37,267 nucleotides of DNA from a virus, in the IMG/VR virus record IMGVR_UViG_3300023179_000270, positions 1-37,267 of that record; one strand, written 5' to 3'. Position numbers and translations under genes: made by a program. The first letter of the stretch is position 1; every line of letters begins with the position of its first letter. Shown here piece by piece: positions 7,988 through 36,747 of this stretch. A model generated the notes under the pieces. That model worked only from the letters and a program-made list of their open reading frames with translations, was not told where the DNA came from and made no database searches.

Positions 7988-7995
7988 TATAAATA
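7988..7995 (+). promoter_or_regulatory. T4-type late promoter box TATAAATA
   Basis: An exact match to the T4 late promoter octamer in a 68-nt gap, 48 nt before the ATG at 8044. A Shine-Dalgarno sequence (AAGGA, near 8033) sits between them, giving a normal leader. A second weaker box, TCTAAATA, overlaps the stop codon of the upstream gene at 7971-7978. Confidence 0.6.
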
Positions 7996-19463: not shown

Positions 19464-19838
19464 ATGGCACATTTTGCACAACTTGATGATAATAATATAG
19501 TGACACAAGTTATTGTTGTTCACAATAATGAATTGATGCTTGATGGTGAAGAGTCTGAAGATAAAGGTGTTTTATTTTGTAAATCACTTTACGGCAGCGA
19601 TACAAAATGGAAACAAACATCTTATAACGGCAGTTTTCGTAAAAACTATGCAGGCATTGGATACACTTTTGACAAAGACAGAAATGCATTTATTCCACCA
19701 AAATCATATAATAGTTGGGTGCTAAATGAAACAACTTGTCTTTGGGAAGCACCTGTTGCATATCCAACAGACAATAAAGTTTATGTTTGGAATGAAGATA
19801 CTATTTCATGGCAAGAAATTGTAGAAACAGCACTATAA
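19464..19838 (+). CDS. Conserved T4-like phage protein (MAHFAQLDDNNIV family)
   Basis: A 124-residue protein with a strong Shine-Dalgarno sequence (AAGAGGAAAAAATG). Highly characteristic sequence: MAHFAQLDDNNIVTQVIVVH, WKQTSYNGSFRKNYAGIGYT, then WEAPVAYPTDNKVYVWNEDT. I recall close homologues in many T4-like and other aquatic phages, usually near fibre genes and without assigned function. The YAGIGYTFDKxRxAFIPPK segment and repeated W residues suggest a compact beta fold. No active site is visible. Probably a minor virion or fibre-associated protein. Confidence 0.78.
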   Translation: MAHFAQLDDNNIVTQVIVVHNNELMLDGEESEDKGVLFCKSLYGSDTKWKQTSYNGSFRKNYAGIGYTFDKDRNAFIPPKSYNSWVLNETTCLWEAPVAYPTDNKVYVWNEDTISWQEIVETAL

Positions 19839-19841
19839 ATA
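19834..19841 (+). promoter_or_regulatory. T4-type late promoter box TATAAATA at a stop codon
   Basis: An exact TATAAATA octamer overlapping the TAA stop of the preceding gene and ending 7 nt before the ATG at 19849. No Shine-Dalgarno sequence lies between, so a transcript from here would be nearly leaderless. Confidence 0.42.
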
Positions 19842-24819: not shown

Positions 24820-25728
24820 GTGTCAACAAATTTCTATTTCAATAATTTTCCTGCAAACCAGATAACCAGTGAGCAATTGCTGGTCGAAGATTTGGTCATT
24901 GAAGCTATGCAGATTCATGGCATGGATGTATTCTACTTGCCTAGAGAGTTGAGAAGTGGAAGCGATTTTGATTTCCTATACGGTGAAGACACAGTAAAGA
25001 GTTATACTAAAGCATACAATCTTGAAATGTATCTAGAGAATGTCACTGGTATGGATGGTGAAGGTGATATCATGTCCAAGTTTGGACTTGAGATTCGTGA
25101 TGAAATTACGCTTCTAGTTTCTCGCCGTAGATTTAAATATGCAACAGCAGCATCAAATTTATTTCGTCCCAGAGAAGGCGATTTAATTTATGTACCGCTA
25201 GTACAAAACTTTTTTGAAATTACTTCTGTAGAACATGAAAACGATCAAGCAATGTTTTATACATTAGGTCGTGGTCGTGGTAACAACGTCTATGTCTATG
25301 CACTCAAGTGCAAACAATTTGTGTTCTCTGAAGAATACATTCAGACTGGTGTTGAAGAAGTTGATGAACAGATTCGTGATGCATACAAGAGAACAGAACT
25401 ATCAATGAATGCTGGTGGTTCAGGTACTTATTTGGTTGATGAGGTTGTATATCAAGGTACAAACTACAATAATTCTACATATCGTGCAACTGTACACTCA
25501 TGGTATCCAACAACACGAAAACTAGATGTTGTTATGGTTCAAGGTGATTTTTCTGCGAACGCAAACACAATTGGTGTTAAAAGTGGCGCAACTTGGGTAT
25601 CTTCTGCATCTGATGATACGGTGTTTGATAATAATGCATTTGAAGATATCGTTGACAATACAAGAATTCAATCGGAAGCTAATTCAATAATTGACTTCTC
25701 TGAGCATAATCCATTTGGTGAAGTATAA
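24820..25728 (+). CDS. 14: Neck protein, T4 gp14 homologue
   Basis: A 302-residue protein (T4 gp14 has 256) with a GTG start two bases after the gp13 stop. Diagnostic sequence: NFYFNNFPANQITSEQLLVE, GMDVFYLPRE, FLYGEDTVKSYTKAYNLEMY and GLEIRDEITLLVSRRRF. gp14 forms the neck ring with gp13 after DNA packaging. The end (DFSEHNPFGEV) is typical for the family. The next gene starts on its last base, giving three neck genes that are tightly coupled. Confidence 0.93.
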   Translation: MSTNFYFNNFPANQITSEQLLVEDLVIEAMQIHGMDVFYLPRELRSGSDFDFLYGEDTVKSYTKAYNLEMYLENVTGMDGEGDIMSKFGLEIRDEITLLVSRRRFKYATAASNLFRPREGDLIYVPLVQNFFEITSVEHENDQAMFYTLGRGRGNNVYVYALKCKQFVFSEEYIQTGVEEVDEQIRDAYKRTELSMNAGGSGTYLVDEVVYQGTNYNNSTYRATVHSWYPTTRKLDVVMVQGDFSANANTIGVKSGATWVSSASDDTVFDNNAFEDIVDNTRIQSEANSIIDFSEHNPFGEV

Positions 25729-26720
25729 TGCTTAATAATCCACATTTCTATCATCGCACGATTCGCAAAGTTGTTGTTGCATTTGGTACTGTCTTTAATG
25801 ACTTATACGTTATTCGTCAATCATCAACAGGTCGTAATTTAGAAAAGTTTAAAGTACCACTGAACTATGGTGCAAAAGAAAAGTATATCGTTCGTTTAAC
25901 AACTGATCCTACGCTTACCAAATCAATTGCAACAGTAGTTCCTAGAATTTCGTTTGAATTAACTGGCATGACTTATGATGAATCACGTAAGTTACCTTCT
26001 ACACTTCGTAACTTTACCGCAAATACTTCAACATCAATCAATGCTCAGTTTGTTCCAGTGCCATATAACTACTCATTTTCAATGTCAATCTATGTGCGTA
26101 ATACAGAAGATGGCGCACAGATTATGGAACAAATTCTACCGTTCTTCACACCAGACTATACGGTAACTCTTGATTTCATTCATTCAATGGGTCACAAATA
26201 TGACATGCCTATCATTTTAAATTCTGTTTCCAATCAAACAGACTATGAAGGTGATATGATGTCAACCCGTTTGATTATTTGGAATCTAGAATTCACAGCA
26301 AAAGGATATGTCTGGCCACCTGTGCAGAATGCGGAAGTTATTCGTCAAGCTAATACAAGTGTTTACTATGAAACATCTTCAAGAAATTCACAGAAAGTTT
26401 ATGTTGATTATGCAAACGGTGTGGGTTATTTTAATCAGACAGAAAATATTCATGTTGCAAACAGAGGTGTAACAGGACAAGTTGTTTATTTTAGCAACAA
26501 CGATACTGGTGTTTTAATTGTAGATAATCTAAACAAACTACTAAAAGCAAATGATAAAGTGGTCGGTGATACTACAAATGCATCATTTACAATTACCACA
26601 ATTGATACTAATCCATTGAAATCGGTGTTGATTGTAACTAAACCTGCACCTAATACAGCATTACCGAATCAAGCATTTGGATTTTCTGAAACAATATCTG
26701 AATACCCTAATATAACTTAA
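25728..26720 (+). CDS. 15: Tail sheath stabiliser and completion protein, T4 gp15 homologue
   Basis: A 330-residue protein (T4 gp15 272). Motifs: NNPHFYHRTIRKVVVAFGTV, LEKFKVPLNYGAKEKYIVRL, PRISFELTGMTYDESRKL and PVPYNYSFSMSIYVRNTED. In T4, gp15 forms the hexameric ring that ends the tail and binds the neck. The C-terminal ~100 residues beyond the conserved part (VYFSNNDTGVLIVDNLNKLL) explain the greater length and look like an added small beta domain, as seen also in the gp13 homologue (GTGTIFDQEIL-like segment). Confidence 0.92.
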   Translation: MLNNPHFYHRTIRKVVVAFGTVFNDLYVIRQSSTGRNLEKFKVPLNYGAKEKYIVRLTTDPTLTKSIATVVPRISFELTGMTYDESRKLPSTLRNFTANTSTSINAQFVPVPYNYSFSMSIYVRNTEDGAQIMEQILPFFTPDYTVTLDFIHSMGHKYDMPIILNSVSNQTDYEGDMMSTRLIIWNLEFTAKGYVWPPVQNAEVIRQANTSVYYETSSRNSQKVYVDYANGVGYFNQTENIHVANRGVTGQVVYFSNNDTGVLIVDNLNKLLKANDKVVGDTTNASFTITTIDTNPLKSVLIVTKPAPNTALPNQAFGFSETISEYPNIT

Positions 26721-26722
26721 TC

Positions 26723-27124
26723 ATGTCTAAATTGAATGAAAAATTATCTGAGGTTCTTGATGTAGAACCTATTGAGATTGAATCTGCTCCTGTTGTGGCT
26801 AAAGACCATACAGAAGACGATGCTGAGTTTGCTCGTAAGAACATTCGCAATCTGATTGAAAAAGGTAATGTTGCTATGGATAATTTATTGATTGTTGCAA
26901 AAGAATCCGAGCATCCAAGAGCATATGAAGTTGCTGCTGGTTTTATTAAGAATTTATCTGACTTAAATAAAGATTTACTTGAAGTACAAAAACGTAAAAA
27001 AGACTTGACTGGCGAAACGCAAAGTGCAAAAAACATAAATGTAGATAAGGCAGTCTTTGTTGGATCTACAACCGAATTAGTAAAATTTTTAAAGAATAAG
27101 GACAATCATGGAACAACTAATTGA
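26723..27124 (+). CDS. 16: Small terminase subunit, T4 gp16 homologue
   Basis: A 133-residue protein (T4 gp16 164). The core DAEFARKNIRNLIEKGNVAM and HPRAYEVAAGFIKNLSDLNK is typical of gp16 and forms the central helical hairpin of the ring; KDLLEVQKRKKDL continues it. The end VFVGSTTELVKFLKNK is also typical. gp16 forms a ring that recognises DNA and regulates the large subunit. Its last 17 nt overlap the start of the Dps-like gene, which carries its own Shine-Dalgarno sequence inside the gp16 gene. Confidence 0.9.
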   Translation: MSKLNEKLSEVLDVEPIEIESAPVVAKDHTEDDAEFARKNIRNLIEKGNVAMDNLLIVAKESEHPRAYEVAAGFIKNLSDLNKDLLEVQKRKKDLTGETQSAKNINVDKAVFVGSTTELVKFLKNKDNHGTTN

Positions 27125-27542
27125 ACAACTCAAAGTAATTTTAGGTACAAATTTTGGTCTGTATCTTAAAGCACACAACTATCATTGGAACATAGAAGGT
27201 AATAATTTTCCACAATATCATTCTTTTTTGGATAGTTTTTATAATTCTGTTTTTGAACAAACAGATAATATTGCAGAACATATTCGTGCATTGAATGCAT
27301 ATGCACCAGGTTCATTTACACGTTTCATTGAGTTGTCTGCTGTTGAAGAGGCAACAACAGTGCCTGATGCATTAACAATGATGACCAATTTAAAAAATGA
27401 TAACGACAAATACATTATGCAGCTAAGAGCAGGTATCGTTGTTGCTGATGCTGCTGGTGAACCTGCTGTATCAAACTTTCTACAAGACTTGTTAGGTGCT
27501 CATCAGAAACATGGCTGGATGCTCCGTAGCATCGTGAAGTAA
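27108..27542 (+). CDS. Dps-like ferritin-family protein inside the terminase operon
   Basis: A 144-residue protein with Dps sequence: YLKAHNYHWNIEGNNFPQYH, then FLDSFYNSVFEQTDNIAEHI and RALNAYAPGS. The five ferroxidase residues of Dps align with the expected spacing: H26, H38, D42, D53 and E57 (12, 4, 11 and 4 residues apart, as in E. coli Dps). Dps proteins form 12-subunit shells that oxidise and store Fe(II) with peroxide and may bind DNA. The protein is shorter than E. coli Dps (167) and lacks the Lys-rich N-terminal tail used there for DNA binding. An AAGGA sequence at 27098-27102 supports this start. It overlaps gp16 by 17 nt and its stop overlaps the gp17 start by one base, so it is made with the terminase subunits. 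Role in the phage is unknown. Confidence 0.9.
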   Translation: MEQLIEQLKVILGTNFGLYLKAHNYHWNIEGNNFPQYHSFLDSFYNSVFEQTDNIAEHIRALNAYAPGSFTRFIELSAVEEATTVPDALTMMTNLKNDNDKYIMQLRAGIVVADAAGEPAVSNFLQDLLGAHQKHGWMLRSIVK

Positions 27543-29161
27543 TGTCTGACGGATATCTTGGTAATGACCGACTCAAAAAAGTCGGTGTTGAATTATCCTA
27601 CACACAAGAACAAGTTGCAGAGATTTTAAAATGCACTGATGATCCAGTGTATTTTATTAGAAAGTATGTACAGATTGTAAACGTTGATTTGGGTCTTGTA
27701 CCTTTTAATATGTGGGGGTTTCAAGAACAAATGGTTCGTGATTTTCATGCGAATCGTTTTTCAATCTGTAAGATGCCTCGGCAGGTAGGAAAAACAACCA
27801 CAACAGTAGGTTATATGTTGTGGGCTGTTCTATTCCAATCCGATTATACTGTAGGTATTCTTGCGAACAAAGGATCGTTAGCAAGAGAGATTCTAAGCCG
27901 TCTTCAGAAAGCATATGAATATTTGCCTATTTGGCTACAACAAGGTATCGTTGTGTGGAACAAAGGTAACATTGAATTAGAAAACGGTTCAAAAATATTC
28001 GCATATGCAACATCTGCTGCTGGTGTTCGCGGTGGTACGTATAATTTAATTTTCTTAGATGAATTCGCATTTGTGCCTCATAACATGGCACAAGAATTCT
28101 TCACATCAACTTACCCTGTTATTTCTTCAGGTAAGACTACAAAGGTTATTATTGTTTCAACGCCAAACGGTCTGAATCAATTCTATAAGATGTGGACTGA
28201 TGCGATAGAAGGTCGTTCTACTTACAAGCCAATTGAAGTGCATTGGTCTATGGTGCCAGGTCGTGATGCTGCATGGAAAGATGAAACGATTCGCAACACT
28301 TCTGAAGAACAATTTAGACAAGAATTTGAAACAGAATTCATTGGTTCATCTGCAACACTCATTTCTGGCGCTAAACTAAGAAGCCTTGCATTTCATAATC
28401 CATTATCTTCAGTTGAAGGACTTGACATATACGAAGAACCAGTTCAAGGTAAATTGTATATCTGTACCGTAGATTGTGCCGAGGGCGTAGACCAAGATTA
28501 TTCAACAATTAATGTTATAGATGTATCACAAACACCGTATAGACAAGTAGCAAAGTATCGTAATAATAAGTTACCGTTATTATTCTTTCCAACGGTAATC
28601 TATTCTTTAGCCAGAAAATACAATGAAGCCTACGTTCTGATTGAAACGAATAACGTAGGACAACAAGTTGTTGACATTCTACACTATGAATTGGAATATG
28701 AGAATGTCTACAAACTTGAGCATCATCATATTAAAGGACAAAGTATTTCTGGTGGTTTCAAACGTTCTTCTTCTTTTGGCATCAGAACAACAAAGACAGT
28801 TAAAAAGATCGGTTGCGCTAACTTGAAAACGCTTATAGAGAACGACAAGTTAATTATCAACGATTTTGATACGATTGCAGAAATGAATACTTTCGTAAGA
28901 ATTCGTGATTCATATGCAGCAGAAGAGGGAAATAATGATGACTTAGTTATGGGCTTAGTTATATTTGCTTGGCTATCCGCGCAGTCATACTTCAGAGATT
29001 CTACGAATATTGACATTCGCCGTGTACTACTCCAAGAAAATAGCACATTTGATGAAGAAAACCTGACTCCCGTTGGCATCATTGATGACGGTAGAAAAGA
29101 AGAAGTTATCAATGATGGGAAAGACATTTGGTCTACCCAAGGGTATTCTTCAACTTTCTAA
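27542..29161 (+). CDS. 17: Large terminase subunit, T4 gp17 homologue
   Basis: A 539-residue protein (T4 gp17 610). ATPase part: Walker A PRQVGKTTT (residues 79-87, with Lys84), Walker B LIFLDE (169-174, catalytic Glu174) and coupling motif VSTPNG (205-210). Nuclease part: DCAEGVDQDYS with Asp311, IETNNVG with Glu368, and NNDDLVMG with Asp466/Asp467, matching the acidic triad of gp17. It pumps DNA into the prohead and cuts the concatemer. It begins on the last base of the Dps-like gene. The acidic N-terminal extension of T4 gp17 is shorter here. All catalytic residues appear intact. Confidence 0.96.
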   Translation: MSDGYLGNDRLKKVGVELSYTQEQVAEILKCTDDPVYFIRKYVQIVNVDLGLVPFNMWGFQEQMVRDFHANRFSICKMPRQVGKTTTTVGYMLWAVLFQSDYTVGILANKGSLAREILSRLQKAYEYLPIWLQQGIVVWNKGNIELENGSKIFAYATSAAGVRGGTYNLIFLDEFAFVPHNMAQEFFTSTYPVISSGKTTKVIIVSTPNGLNQFYKMWTDAIEGRSTYKPIEVHWSMVPGRDAAWKDETIRNTSEEQFRQEFETEFIGSSATLISGAKLRSLAFHNPLSSVEGLDIYEEPVQGKLYICTVDCAEGVDQDYSTINVIDVSQTPYRQVAKYRNNKLPLLFFPTVIYSLARKYNEAYVLIETNNVGQQVVDILHYELEYENVYKLEHHHIKGQSISGGFKRSSSFGIRTTKTVKKIGCANLKTLIENDKLIINDFDTIAEMNTFVRIRDSYAAEEGNNDDLVMGLVIFAWLSAQSYFRDSTNIDIRRVLLQENSTFDEENLTPVGIIDDGRKEEVINDGKDIWSTQGYSSTF

Positions 29162-29217: not shown

Positions 29218-30897
29218 ATGGCATTTCAGTTATCACCTGGGGTAAACGTATCAGAAATTGACCTGACTACAATCGTCCCCTCAGTCGCCACATCCATTGG
29301 CGCATTTGCCGGTCCGTTTGCATGGGGTCCAGTTGGTGAAATCATTACTATTTCCGATGAAGTCCGTCTTGCTGCAACATTTGGCAAGCCAGACTCAACA
29401 AATTATGAATACTGGTTCTCAGCAGCAAACTTCTTGGCTTATTCAAGCAATTTAAAAGTCGTTCGTGCAGTCAATGCTGCTACAGCACGAAACGCATCTG
29501 CAAATGGTACTGTCGTTCTAATTAAAAATAGCGATGATTGGTTAGACAACTATTCTAGTGGTGCAAACACTTATGGTTATTTTACTGCACGTTATGCTGG
29601 AGCAATCGGCAATTCATTAAAAGTTTCAATGGCTGATGCTAACACATATAACAACTGGACTTATTCATCACTATTCACATCAACACCAGGAACATCAACA
29701 TATGTTTCAAACAAAAATGGTGCAAACGATGAAATTCATATCGTTGTTATTGATGAAGATGGTTTGTTTACAGGTACAGCAAACACAGTTCTAGAAAAAT
29801 ATGCTTTTGTTTCTAAAGCTGCCGATGCAAAAGATGACTCAGGTAATGCAAACTATTACAAAACAGTTCTTCAGAACAAATCTAATTACATTAACTGGAT
29901 GGCTCATCCAGGCACCACCGGTTCTGGAACTGCATGGGGATCAAATGCAAATGCATCAACATTTGCTGGTCTAACAGGTAACGTTACAGTGTCTCTATCA
30001 GGCGGTGTTGACGGTACAACTTCAACAGCAAACGTTGTGACAGCATACGATTATTTCAATAACGCAGAAGCAGTTGACATTTCTCTAATCGTTAGCGGTC
30101 CAGGTGATGCAACAGTCGCAACATCACTTATCGCAACTTGCGAATCAAGAAAAGATTGTGTTGTATTCTTGTCACCTACAAAAGCAAGCGTTGTTGACAA
30201 TGCAGGTTCAGAGACAACATCAGTCACAAGTTATCGCAATTCATTAACAAGCTCATCATATGCTGTCATTGATTGCAACTGGAAGTATCAATATGACAAG
30301 TACAATGATGTGTATCGTTGGTTGCCATTAAACGGTGACGTTGCTGGTCTATGTGCAAGAACAGACCTTGAAAGAGATCCATGGTTCTCACCAGGTGGTT
30401 TGAATCGCGGTATCATCAAGAATGTTATTAAACTTGCATGGAATCCAACAAAGACAAACCGTGATGACCTCTATATCAAGGGTGTTAACCCAATCGTTTC
30501 ATTCCAAGGCGAAGGTACAGTTCTATTTGGTGATAAGACAATGCTTTCTAAGCCAAGTGCATTTGATCGTATCAATGTTCGCCGCTTGTTTATTGTCCTT
30601 GAGAAGGCAATTTCAAGAGCAGCAAGATTCTCAATGTTTGAATTCAACGATCAATTTACACGCGCACAGTTTGTTTCACTAGTTGAACCATATCTACGCG
30701 ATGTTCAAGGTCGCCGTGGTATTACTGACTTCCGTGTTGTCTGTAACGAAACCAATAACACTGGTGAAATTATTGACCGCAACGAATTCGTTGGTGATAT
30801 CTACATCAAACCTGCCCGTTCAATCAACTTTATCCAACTTAACTTTGTCGCAGTACGCACTGGCGTATCGTTTGATGAAGTGGTTGGAAAGTTTTAA
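29218..30897 (+). CDS. 18: Contractile tail sheath protein, T4 gp18 homologue
   Basis: A 559-residue protein (T4 gp18 659). Diagnostic sequence: FQLSPGVNVSEIDLTTIVPS, ATSIGAFAGPFAWGPVGEII at the N-terminus, and in the C-terminal polymerisation domain DPWFSPGGLNRGIIKNVIKL, FGDKTMLSKPSAFDRINVRR and GDIYIKPARSINFIQLNFVA. These are the conserved sheath core strands. The middle (~110-300) is the variable outer part and is shorter than in T4. Strong Shine-Dalgarno AAAGGAG 7 nt before the ATG and codons unlike the fibre genes (more C-ending) fit high expression. The gene identifies the phage as a myovirus. Confidence 0.96.
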   Translation: MAFQLSPGVNVSEIDLTTIVPSVATSIGAFAGPFAWGPVGEIITISDEVRLAATFGKPDSTNYEYWFSAANFLAYSSNLKVVRAVNAATARNASANGTVVLIKNSDDWLDNYSSGANTYGYFTARYAGAIGNSLKVSMADANTYNNWTYSSLFTSTPGTSTYVSNKNGANDEIHIVVIDEDGLFTGTANTVLEKYAFVSKAADAKDDSGNANYYKTVLQNKSNYINWMAHPGTTGSGTAWGSNANASTFAGLTGNVTVSLSGGVDGTTSTANVVTAYDYFNNAEAVDISLIVSGPGDATVATSLIATCESRKDCVVFLSPTKASVVDNAGSETTSVTSYRNSLTSSSYAVIDCNWKYQYDKYNDVYRWLPLNGDVAGLCARTDLERDPWFSPGGLNRGIIKNVIKLAWNPTKTNRDDLYIKGVNPIVSFQGEGTVLFGDKTMLSKPSAFDRINVRRLFIVLEKAISRAARFSMFEFNDQFTRAQFVSLVEPYLRDVQGRRGITDFRVVCNETNNTGEIIDRNEFVGDIYIKPARSINFIQLNFVAVRTGVSFDEVVGKF

Positions 30898-36739: not shown

Positions 36740-36747
36740 TATAAATA
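36740..36747 (+). promoter_or_regulatory. T4-type late promoter box TATAAATA before gp22
   Basis: Exact TATAAATA, 22 nt before the ATG at 36770, with a strong AAGGAG at 36757-36762. The same arrangement (late promoter before genes 22 and 23) is known in T4. Confidence 0.55.

Follow-up and report, generated by a model that had tools for sequence, protein, structure and literature searches.

A Dps mini-ferritin gene between the terminase genes of an uncultured T4-like phage lineage

Dps proteins encoded by phages have been regarded as oxidative-stress enzymes (PMC8008677; PMC6669764). In the phiEco32-like phages SU10, 7-11 and Privateer they are products of middle genes near thymidylate synthase, thioredoxin and phoH, and Dps has been detected with purified virions of Privateer (PMC7881722) and of SU10, in the latter case along with DNA polymerase and thioredoxin (PMC4281155). 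More generally, the Dps genes of annotated phages lie near thymidylate synthase, ribonucleotide reductase, tRNAs or sulfate adenylyltransferase. The closest solved structure to the protein described here is cellular: Dps of Pseudomonas aeruginosa, a stress protein that uses H2O2 rather than O2 as oxidant and whose deletion leaves cells sensitive to H2O2 (PMC10002758). Here we describe a Dps gene in the T4-like viral record IMGVR_UViG_3300023179_000270, of which the whole stretch analysed (37,267 nucleotides) is called the window; the gene is located between those for the small (TerS) and large (TerL) terminase subunits, in the late operon, and its product is ~27-31% identical to the phiEco32-like proteins. 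This position is unusual and apparently unreported, although phage-borne Dps as such is already known; our search of the open-access literature, which did not extend to subscription papers and preprints, turned up no description of Dps at the terminase junction. On balance we lean towards reading the gene as a mini-ferritin that the phage makes late and in abundance to detoxify peroxide and iron, carried in a cargo slot and not part of the packaging motor.

Judged by sequence profiles and a structural model, window positions 27108-27542 encode a genuine and complete Dps protein. The Ferritin family PF00210 is matched over residues 5-143, that is, the whole protein, at 5.4e-24 (85 bits, cut-off 24.5), and phrog_3636 at 1.9e-34; of the 66 PDB chains matched by sequence the top ones are all Dps, the best being P. 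aeruginosa Dps 8ff9 (1.5e-22). An AlphaFold monomer prediction from 47 related sequences has a mean pLDDT (predicted local distance difference test) of 97.5 and helices at residues 2-28, 34-61, 70-76, 88-115 and 119-143, which is the Dps subunit fold: a four-helix bundle with a short loop helix (70-76) and no fifth C-terminal helix. Foldseek comparison with Dps structures gives template-modelling (TM) scores of 0.94-0.96 (S. aureus Dps 0.96, P. aeruginosa Dps 0.95-0.96), and essentially all of the best 50 PDB structure matches are Dps or Dps-like. The original prediction of a Dps-type ferritin between the small and large terminase genes is therefore confirmed by Pfam, PHROG, PDB and AlphaFold/Foldseek evidence, the profile search placing the protein inside the ferritin superfamily. 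Its further observation that the Lys-rich terminal tail of E. coli-type DNA-binding Dps is absent is borne out by the alignment, in which the window protein has no N-terminal extension; the protein is also acidic (10 K+R vs 16 D+E), and a tail-less acidic protein supports the view taken there that removal of iron and peroxide is likelier than coating of DNA. A dodecameric shell with the iron site at the dimer interface is predicted, with ligands placed by homology to the P. aeruginosa crystal structure.

Residues H26, H38, D42, D53 and E57 align without gaps to H51, H63, D67, D78 and E82 of E. coli Dps, the ferroxidase positions of that protein. Among 289 distinct sequences (128 from the terminase slot, 82 from other phages and 79 bacterial), H26, H38, D53 and E57 are invariant (289/289). 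Position 42 is occupied in the 128 terminase-slot proteins by G (73), N (28), D (23), K (2), A (1) or S (1), and in the 79 bacterial relatives by E (70), M (8) or Q (1). The claim that all five ferroxidase residues are present with correct spacing thus holds in the window and fails across the family, where four are invariant and position 42 is mostly G or N; as the alignment has it, D42 is real in the window and not required in the family. In the crystal structure of P. aeruginosa Dps the iron ligands are H37, H49, D64 and E68, and the equivalent of position 42 is not an iron ligand (PMC10002758). Window residues H26, H38, D53 and E57 map onto these four ligands, and the two proteins (P. aeruginosa PA0962, PDB 8ff9) are further alike in having the fold with a short loop helix and no basic tail, at 31% identity in structural alignment. 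They differ at position 42, which is Glu in P. aeruginosa Dps, Asp in the window and mostly Gly or Asn in its relatives, and in setting, one being a cellular stress protein and the other encoded in a phage late operon. W27 and Y45 correspond to the radical-trapping pair W32/Y50 of L. innocua Dps (an offset of 5 from the ligand alignment) and are invariant in 128/128 terminase-slot proteins. Over 187 pairs the median ratio of nonsynonymous to synonymous substitution rates (dN/dS) is 0.12, indicating purifying selection on the Dps gene.

A survey of T4-like terminase neighbourhoods found the slot Dps to be conserved in this lineage. Searching IMG/VR with TerL as bait gave 80 loci, of which 57 have the order TerS-Dps-TerL, 5 have Dps-TerL with TerS off the contig, 11 have TerS-TerL without Dps, and 7 are uninformative because of contig edges; Dps accordingly fills the slot in 62 of the 73 informative contigs (85%). 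Because bait sets were picked by similarity and include near-identical contigs, these counts describe this lineage and not all phages. In the 11 contigs that lack Dps the terminase genes are adjacent and TerL is 70-84% identical to that of the window. Searches with Dps as bait placed nearly all near relatives in the same slot. Around terminases of the Mosig and cyanophage types, Dps was at the junction in 0/80 loci, both terminase genes being in view in 59. Pelagibacter phage Mosig and Synechococcus phage S-T4 share the same order (neck, sheath stabilizer, TerS, TerL, sheath, tube, portal), with inserts other than Dps between TerS and TerL: a 69-aa protein of unknown function in Mosig, and three genes including one for a virion structural protein in S-T4. 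The Dps of Synechococcus phage S-SRM01 and its freshwater relatives resembles that of the window in being phage-encoded, tail-less and equipped with the same ligands (35% identity), but it forms a separate tree clade and is located far from the terminase, in a metabolic island downstream of porin/PstS-like genes, the PstS-like label being our own reading. A large group of such S-SRM01-type loci (L397-L476) often has Dps downstream of porin/PstS-like genes and then a zinc-ribbon-like protein of ~85 aa. Reaction-centre genes of the psbA/psbD type, as a sign of a cyanobacterial host, were absent from 13 long related contigs; these contigs are incomplete, and the host is not settled thereby.

The Dps gene and its neighbours occupy the following positions, in window coordinates:

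25728..26720, + strand: tail sheath stabilizer (gp3-like), upstream neighbour (phrog_227, 1e-74)
26723..27124, + strand: small terminase subunit (gp16-like), without a Shine-Dalgarno sequence (PF11053, 1.1e-10; phrog_445, 1.3e-33)
27097..27102, + strand: Shine-Dalgarno sequence TAAGGA of the Dps gene, within the 3' end of the small terminase gene
27108..27542, + strand: Dps mini-ferritin, 144 aa (PF00210, phrog_3636, PDB matches, AlphaFold model, family alignment)
27542..29161, + strand: large terminase subunit (gp17-like), without a Shine-Dalgarno sequence (PF03237, 6.8e-28; PF17289, 3.3e-15)
29218..30897, + strand: tail sheath protein (gp18-like), downstream neighbour (phrog_23, 1e-139)

Matches to PF11053, PF03237, PF17289, phrog_445 and phrog_2, together with the neighbouring genes, identify a T4-type terminase locus within a late structural operon, in the order neck/head-completion, sheath stabilizer, TerS, Dps, TerL, sheath, tube, portal and prohead protease. 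The 37-kb record contains one copy of Dps, and no Dps-terminase fusion was seen among the open reading frames examined. No T4-type late promoter, TATAAATA, is located directly upstream of TerS, and the transcription unit is therefore deduced from gene order alone. Three exact matches to TATAAATA do occur in the window (7988-7995, 19834-19841 and 36740-36747), a count not above chance, all of them on the + strand and at or beside gene boundaries, as expected of T4 late promoters.

The signal for translation sets Dps apart from the two genes around it. Scoring an anti-Shine-Dalgarno match of at least 4 nt upstream of the start codon, and with the tail sheath gene as the high-expression control, we found matches at 100/123 Dps genes, 4/134 TerS genes, 3/85 TerL genes and 82/82 tail sheath genes, compared with 14% of random positions. 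After loci were collapsed at 85% identity the corresponding counts were 42/54, 3/64, 0/28 and 56/56. Since Dps has a Shine-Dalgarno sequence of its own and the terminase genes have none, it is probably produced at a high level that the motor proteins do not reach: the predicted pattern is of one abundant protein flanked by two scarce ones. In the window the Dps reading frame overlaps that of TerS by 17 nt and that of TerL by 1 nt (TAATG, the Dps stop codon sharing a nucleotide with the TerL start), from which the original prediction concluded that Dps is expressed with the packaging motor. The overlaps themselves stand for the window but are not a conserved feature: spacing varies across relatives (-14 to +78 nt for TerS-Dps, -1 to +35 nt for Dps-TerL, with a gene of ~580 nt sometimes inserted). 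Given this variation and the separate Shine-Dalgarno sequence of Dps, the conclusion is not supported in that form. Co-transcription of Dps with the terminase genes is plausible.

A tree of 180 large terminases requires at least 5 switches between having and lacking Dps and at least 7 exchanges of one deep Dps clade for the other; L086, the sister of the window's terminase, bears the other Dps clade. By this tree the slot has repeatedly gained, lost or swapped Dps. Other genes enter the junction as well: in L183 (2859-4976) and its relatives, two putative structural genes, one for a 152-aa protein of unknown function and one for a 551-aa glycine-rich protein resembling a tail fibre, lie between TerS and Dps. 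Related Dps genes also occur elsewhere, as in the long T4-like contigs L227 and L232, where they are 48-52 kb from TerL. A location so distant, together with the other genes at the junction, means that proximity to the motor is no requirement for the protein, and a connection with DNA packaging does not follow from gene position.

Some further observations concern the same region. Endonuclease-like genes, GIY-YIG-like and HNH-like by eye, are found exactly at the Dps-TerL or TerS-Dps boundary in L004 (4112-4690) and L189 (4469-4999). In L003 and L011 the TerL gene is apparently interrupted near codon 263, the match resuming at residue 264 some ~1.8 kb past Dps, possibly through an intron or an intervening gene. 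In L227, L232, L233 and L234 the related Dps is away from the terminase and beside genes whose products have short amphipathic N-termini (MKTFQEFILE, MKSLKQFIAEE); as read from these N-termini, they bear a weak resemblance to T4 capsid-targeting peptides. Recent transfer from a bacterium was considered as a source of the gene and set aside, the best bacterial match being 41% identical and the phage proteins grouping with one another in the tree (support 0.95).

The reading we prefer, an intracellular detoxifier made late in infection, starts from the fold, di-iron ligands, Trp/Tyr pair, acidic tail-less surface, strong ribosome-binding site and long-term selection that sequence and model indicate. 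Dps would be expressed from the late operon in large amounts, and twelve subunits would assemble into a shell; Fe2+ would be oxidised by H2O2 at sites between subunits and the ferric iron stored within. Fenton damage would thereby be lowered for the large pool of phage DNA that is replicated and not yet packaged, and the dying cell, still needed for phage assembly, may likewise be spared. The gene would be located between the terminase genes because short cargo genes are tolerated at this junction and are assured of being expressed late. Two points weigh against this reading: the acid is lost at position 42 in most relatives, which could alter the second iron site, and the fact that Dps has stayed in precisely this slot across a large lineage, with two deep clades occupying it, could mean a functional tie to packaging or to the head. 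A direct role in the motor is unlikely because close relatives manage without Dps. The proposal that Dps binds, protects or nicks concatemeric DNA together with terminase has in its favour the location of the gene between both subunits and the finding that P. aeruginosa Dps, also without a basic tail, cleaves DNA in vitro (PMC10002758); yet the 11 Dps-less contigs, whose TerL is so similar to that of the window, indicate a motor that does not need Dps, predicted Dps expression is strongly unlike that of the motor, near relatives lie tens of kilobases from TerL in other T4-like genomes, and the surface is acidic and tail-less, so that we consider such a role very improbable. Iron hoarding, in which the shell takes host iron or stores it for iron-dependent phage enzymes and peroxide removal is secondary, would accord with the intact di-iron ligands and with how often other phages have Dps next to a ribonucleotide reductase gene or nucleotide genes, but no iron-enzyme gene adjoins Dps in the window and position 42 is often without an acid; we regard it as quite unlikely. 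We think it unlikely, too, that the gene is selfish or neutral cargo, a mobile host-fitness gene kept by drift and hotspot recombination with no role late in infection. Repeated gain, loss and swapping at the junction, the insertion of homing-endonuclease-like genes at the two edges that some contigs show, and the location of phage Dps elsewhere in metabolic gene islands are what such cargo would leave behind, whereas strong purifying selection, the maintained Shine-Dalgarno sequence and retention in most informative contigs are not, and T4-like phages are usually lytic, so that host fitness outside infection would be of little use to them.

The leading rival to the intracellular detoxifier is carriage of the Dps shell in the virion, within the head or attached to it, where it would protect the packaged genome or be delivered to the next host; we hold this to be possible without expecting it. 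The detection of Dps with purified SU10 and Privateer virions is a precedent, high predicted synthesis and late-operon position fit, and a viral structure library has three larger phage proteins, named 'Prohead protease', that contain a Dps fold; the capsid-targeting-peptide-like N-termini encoded beside Dps in related contigs are weakly in its favour. On the other side, the SU10 preparations also contained DNA polymerase and thioredoxin, which leaves room for carry-over, and the window Dps has no N-terminal extension, its candidate protease site E6 being Q or N in many relatives. A capsid-targeting peptide on the window Dps itself was rejected on these same grounds, residue 6 not being conserved as Glu and no extension being present. 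The three library entries (BFVD A0A6J7XDU5, A0A6J7WPK9 and A0A6J7WIS1; 333, 763 and 432 aa), matched by the window Dps model, come from uncultured Caudovirales phages, and their modelled fusions suggest that Dps domains are delivered into proheads; a scan of viral contigs for further fusions of Dps with prohead protease, using a bacterial-type seed, gave free-standing Dps only. A further proposal, which we find doubtful, is that in this lineage Dps is a virion or head-assembly protein: the packaging operon would yield it in structural-protein amounts, and it would travel with the head and enter the host together with the genome, as an antioxidant shell already assembled. If true, the terminase slot, the internal-protein-like neighbourhoods and the prohead-protease fusions would be three versions of one theme.

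A large uncultured T4-like lineage has retained Dps within the late operon that it conserves best, under a ribosome-binding site like that of a structural protein, which suggests that oxidative or iron stress genuinely constrains the late stage of infection. Phage Dps proteins have been known with a role that is so far predicted, and the terminase-slot Dps offers a defined gene for study. It also illustrates that a gene located beside those of a packaging motor need not have a role in packaging.
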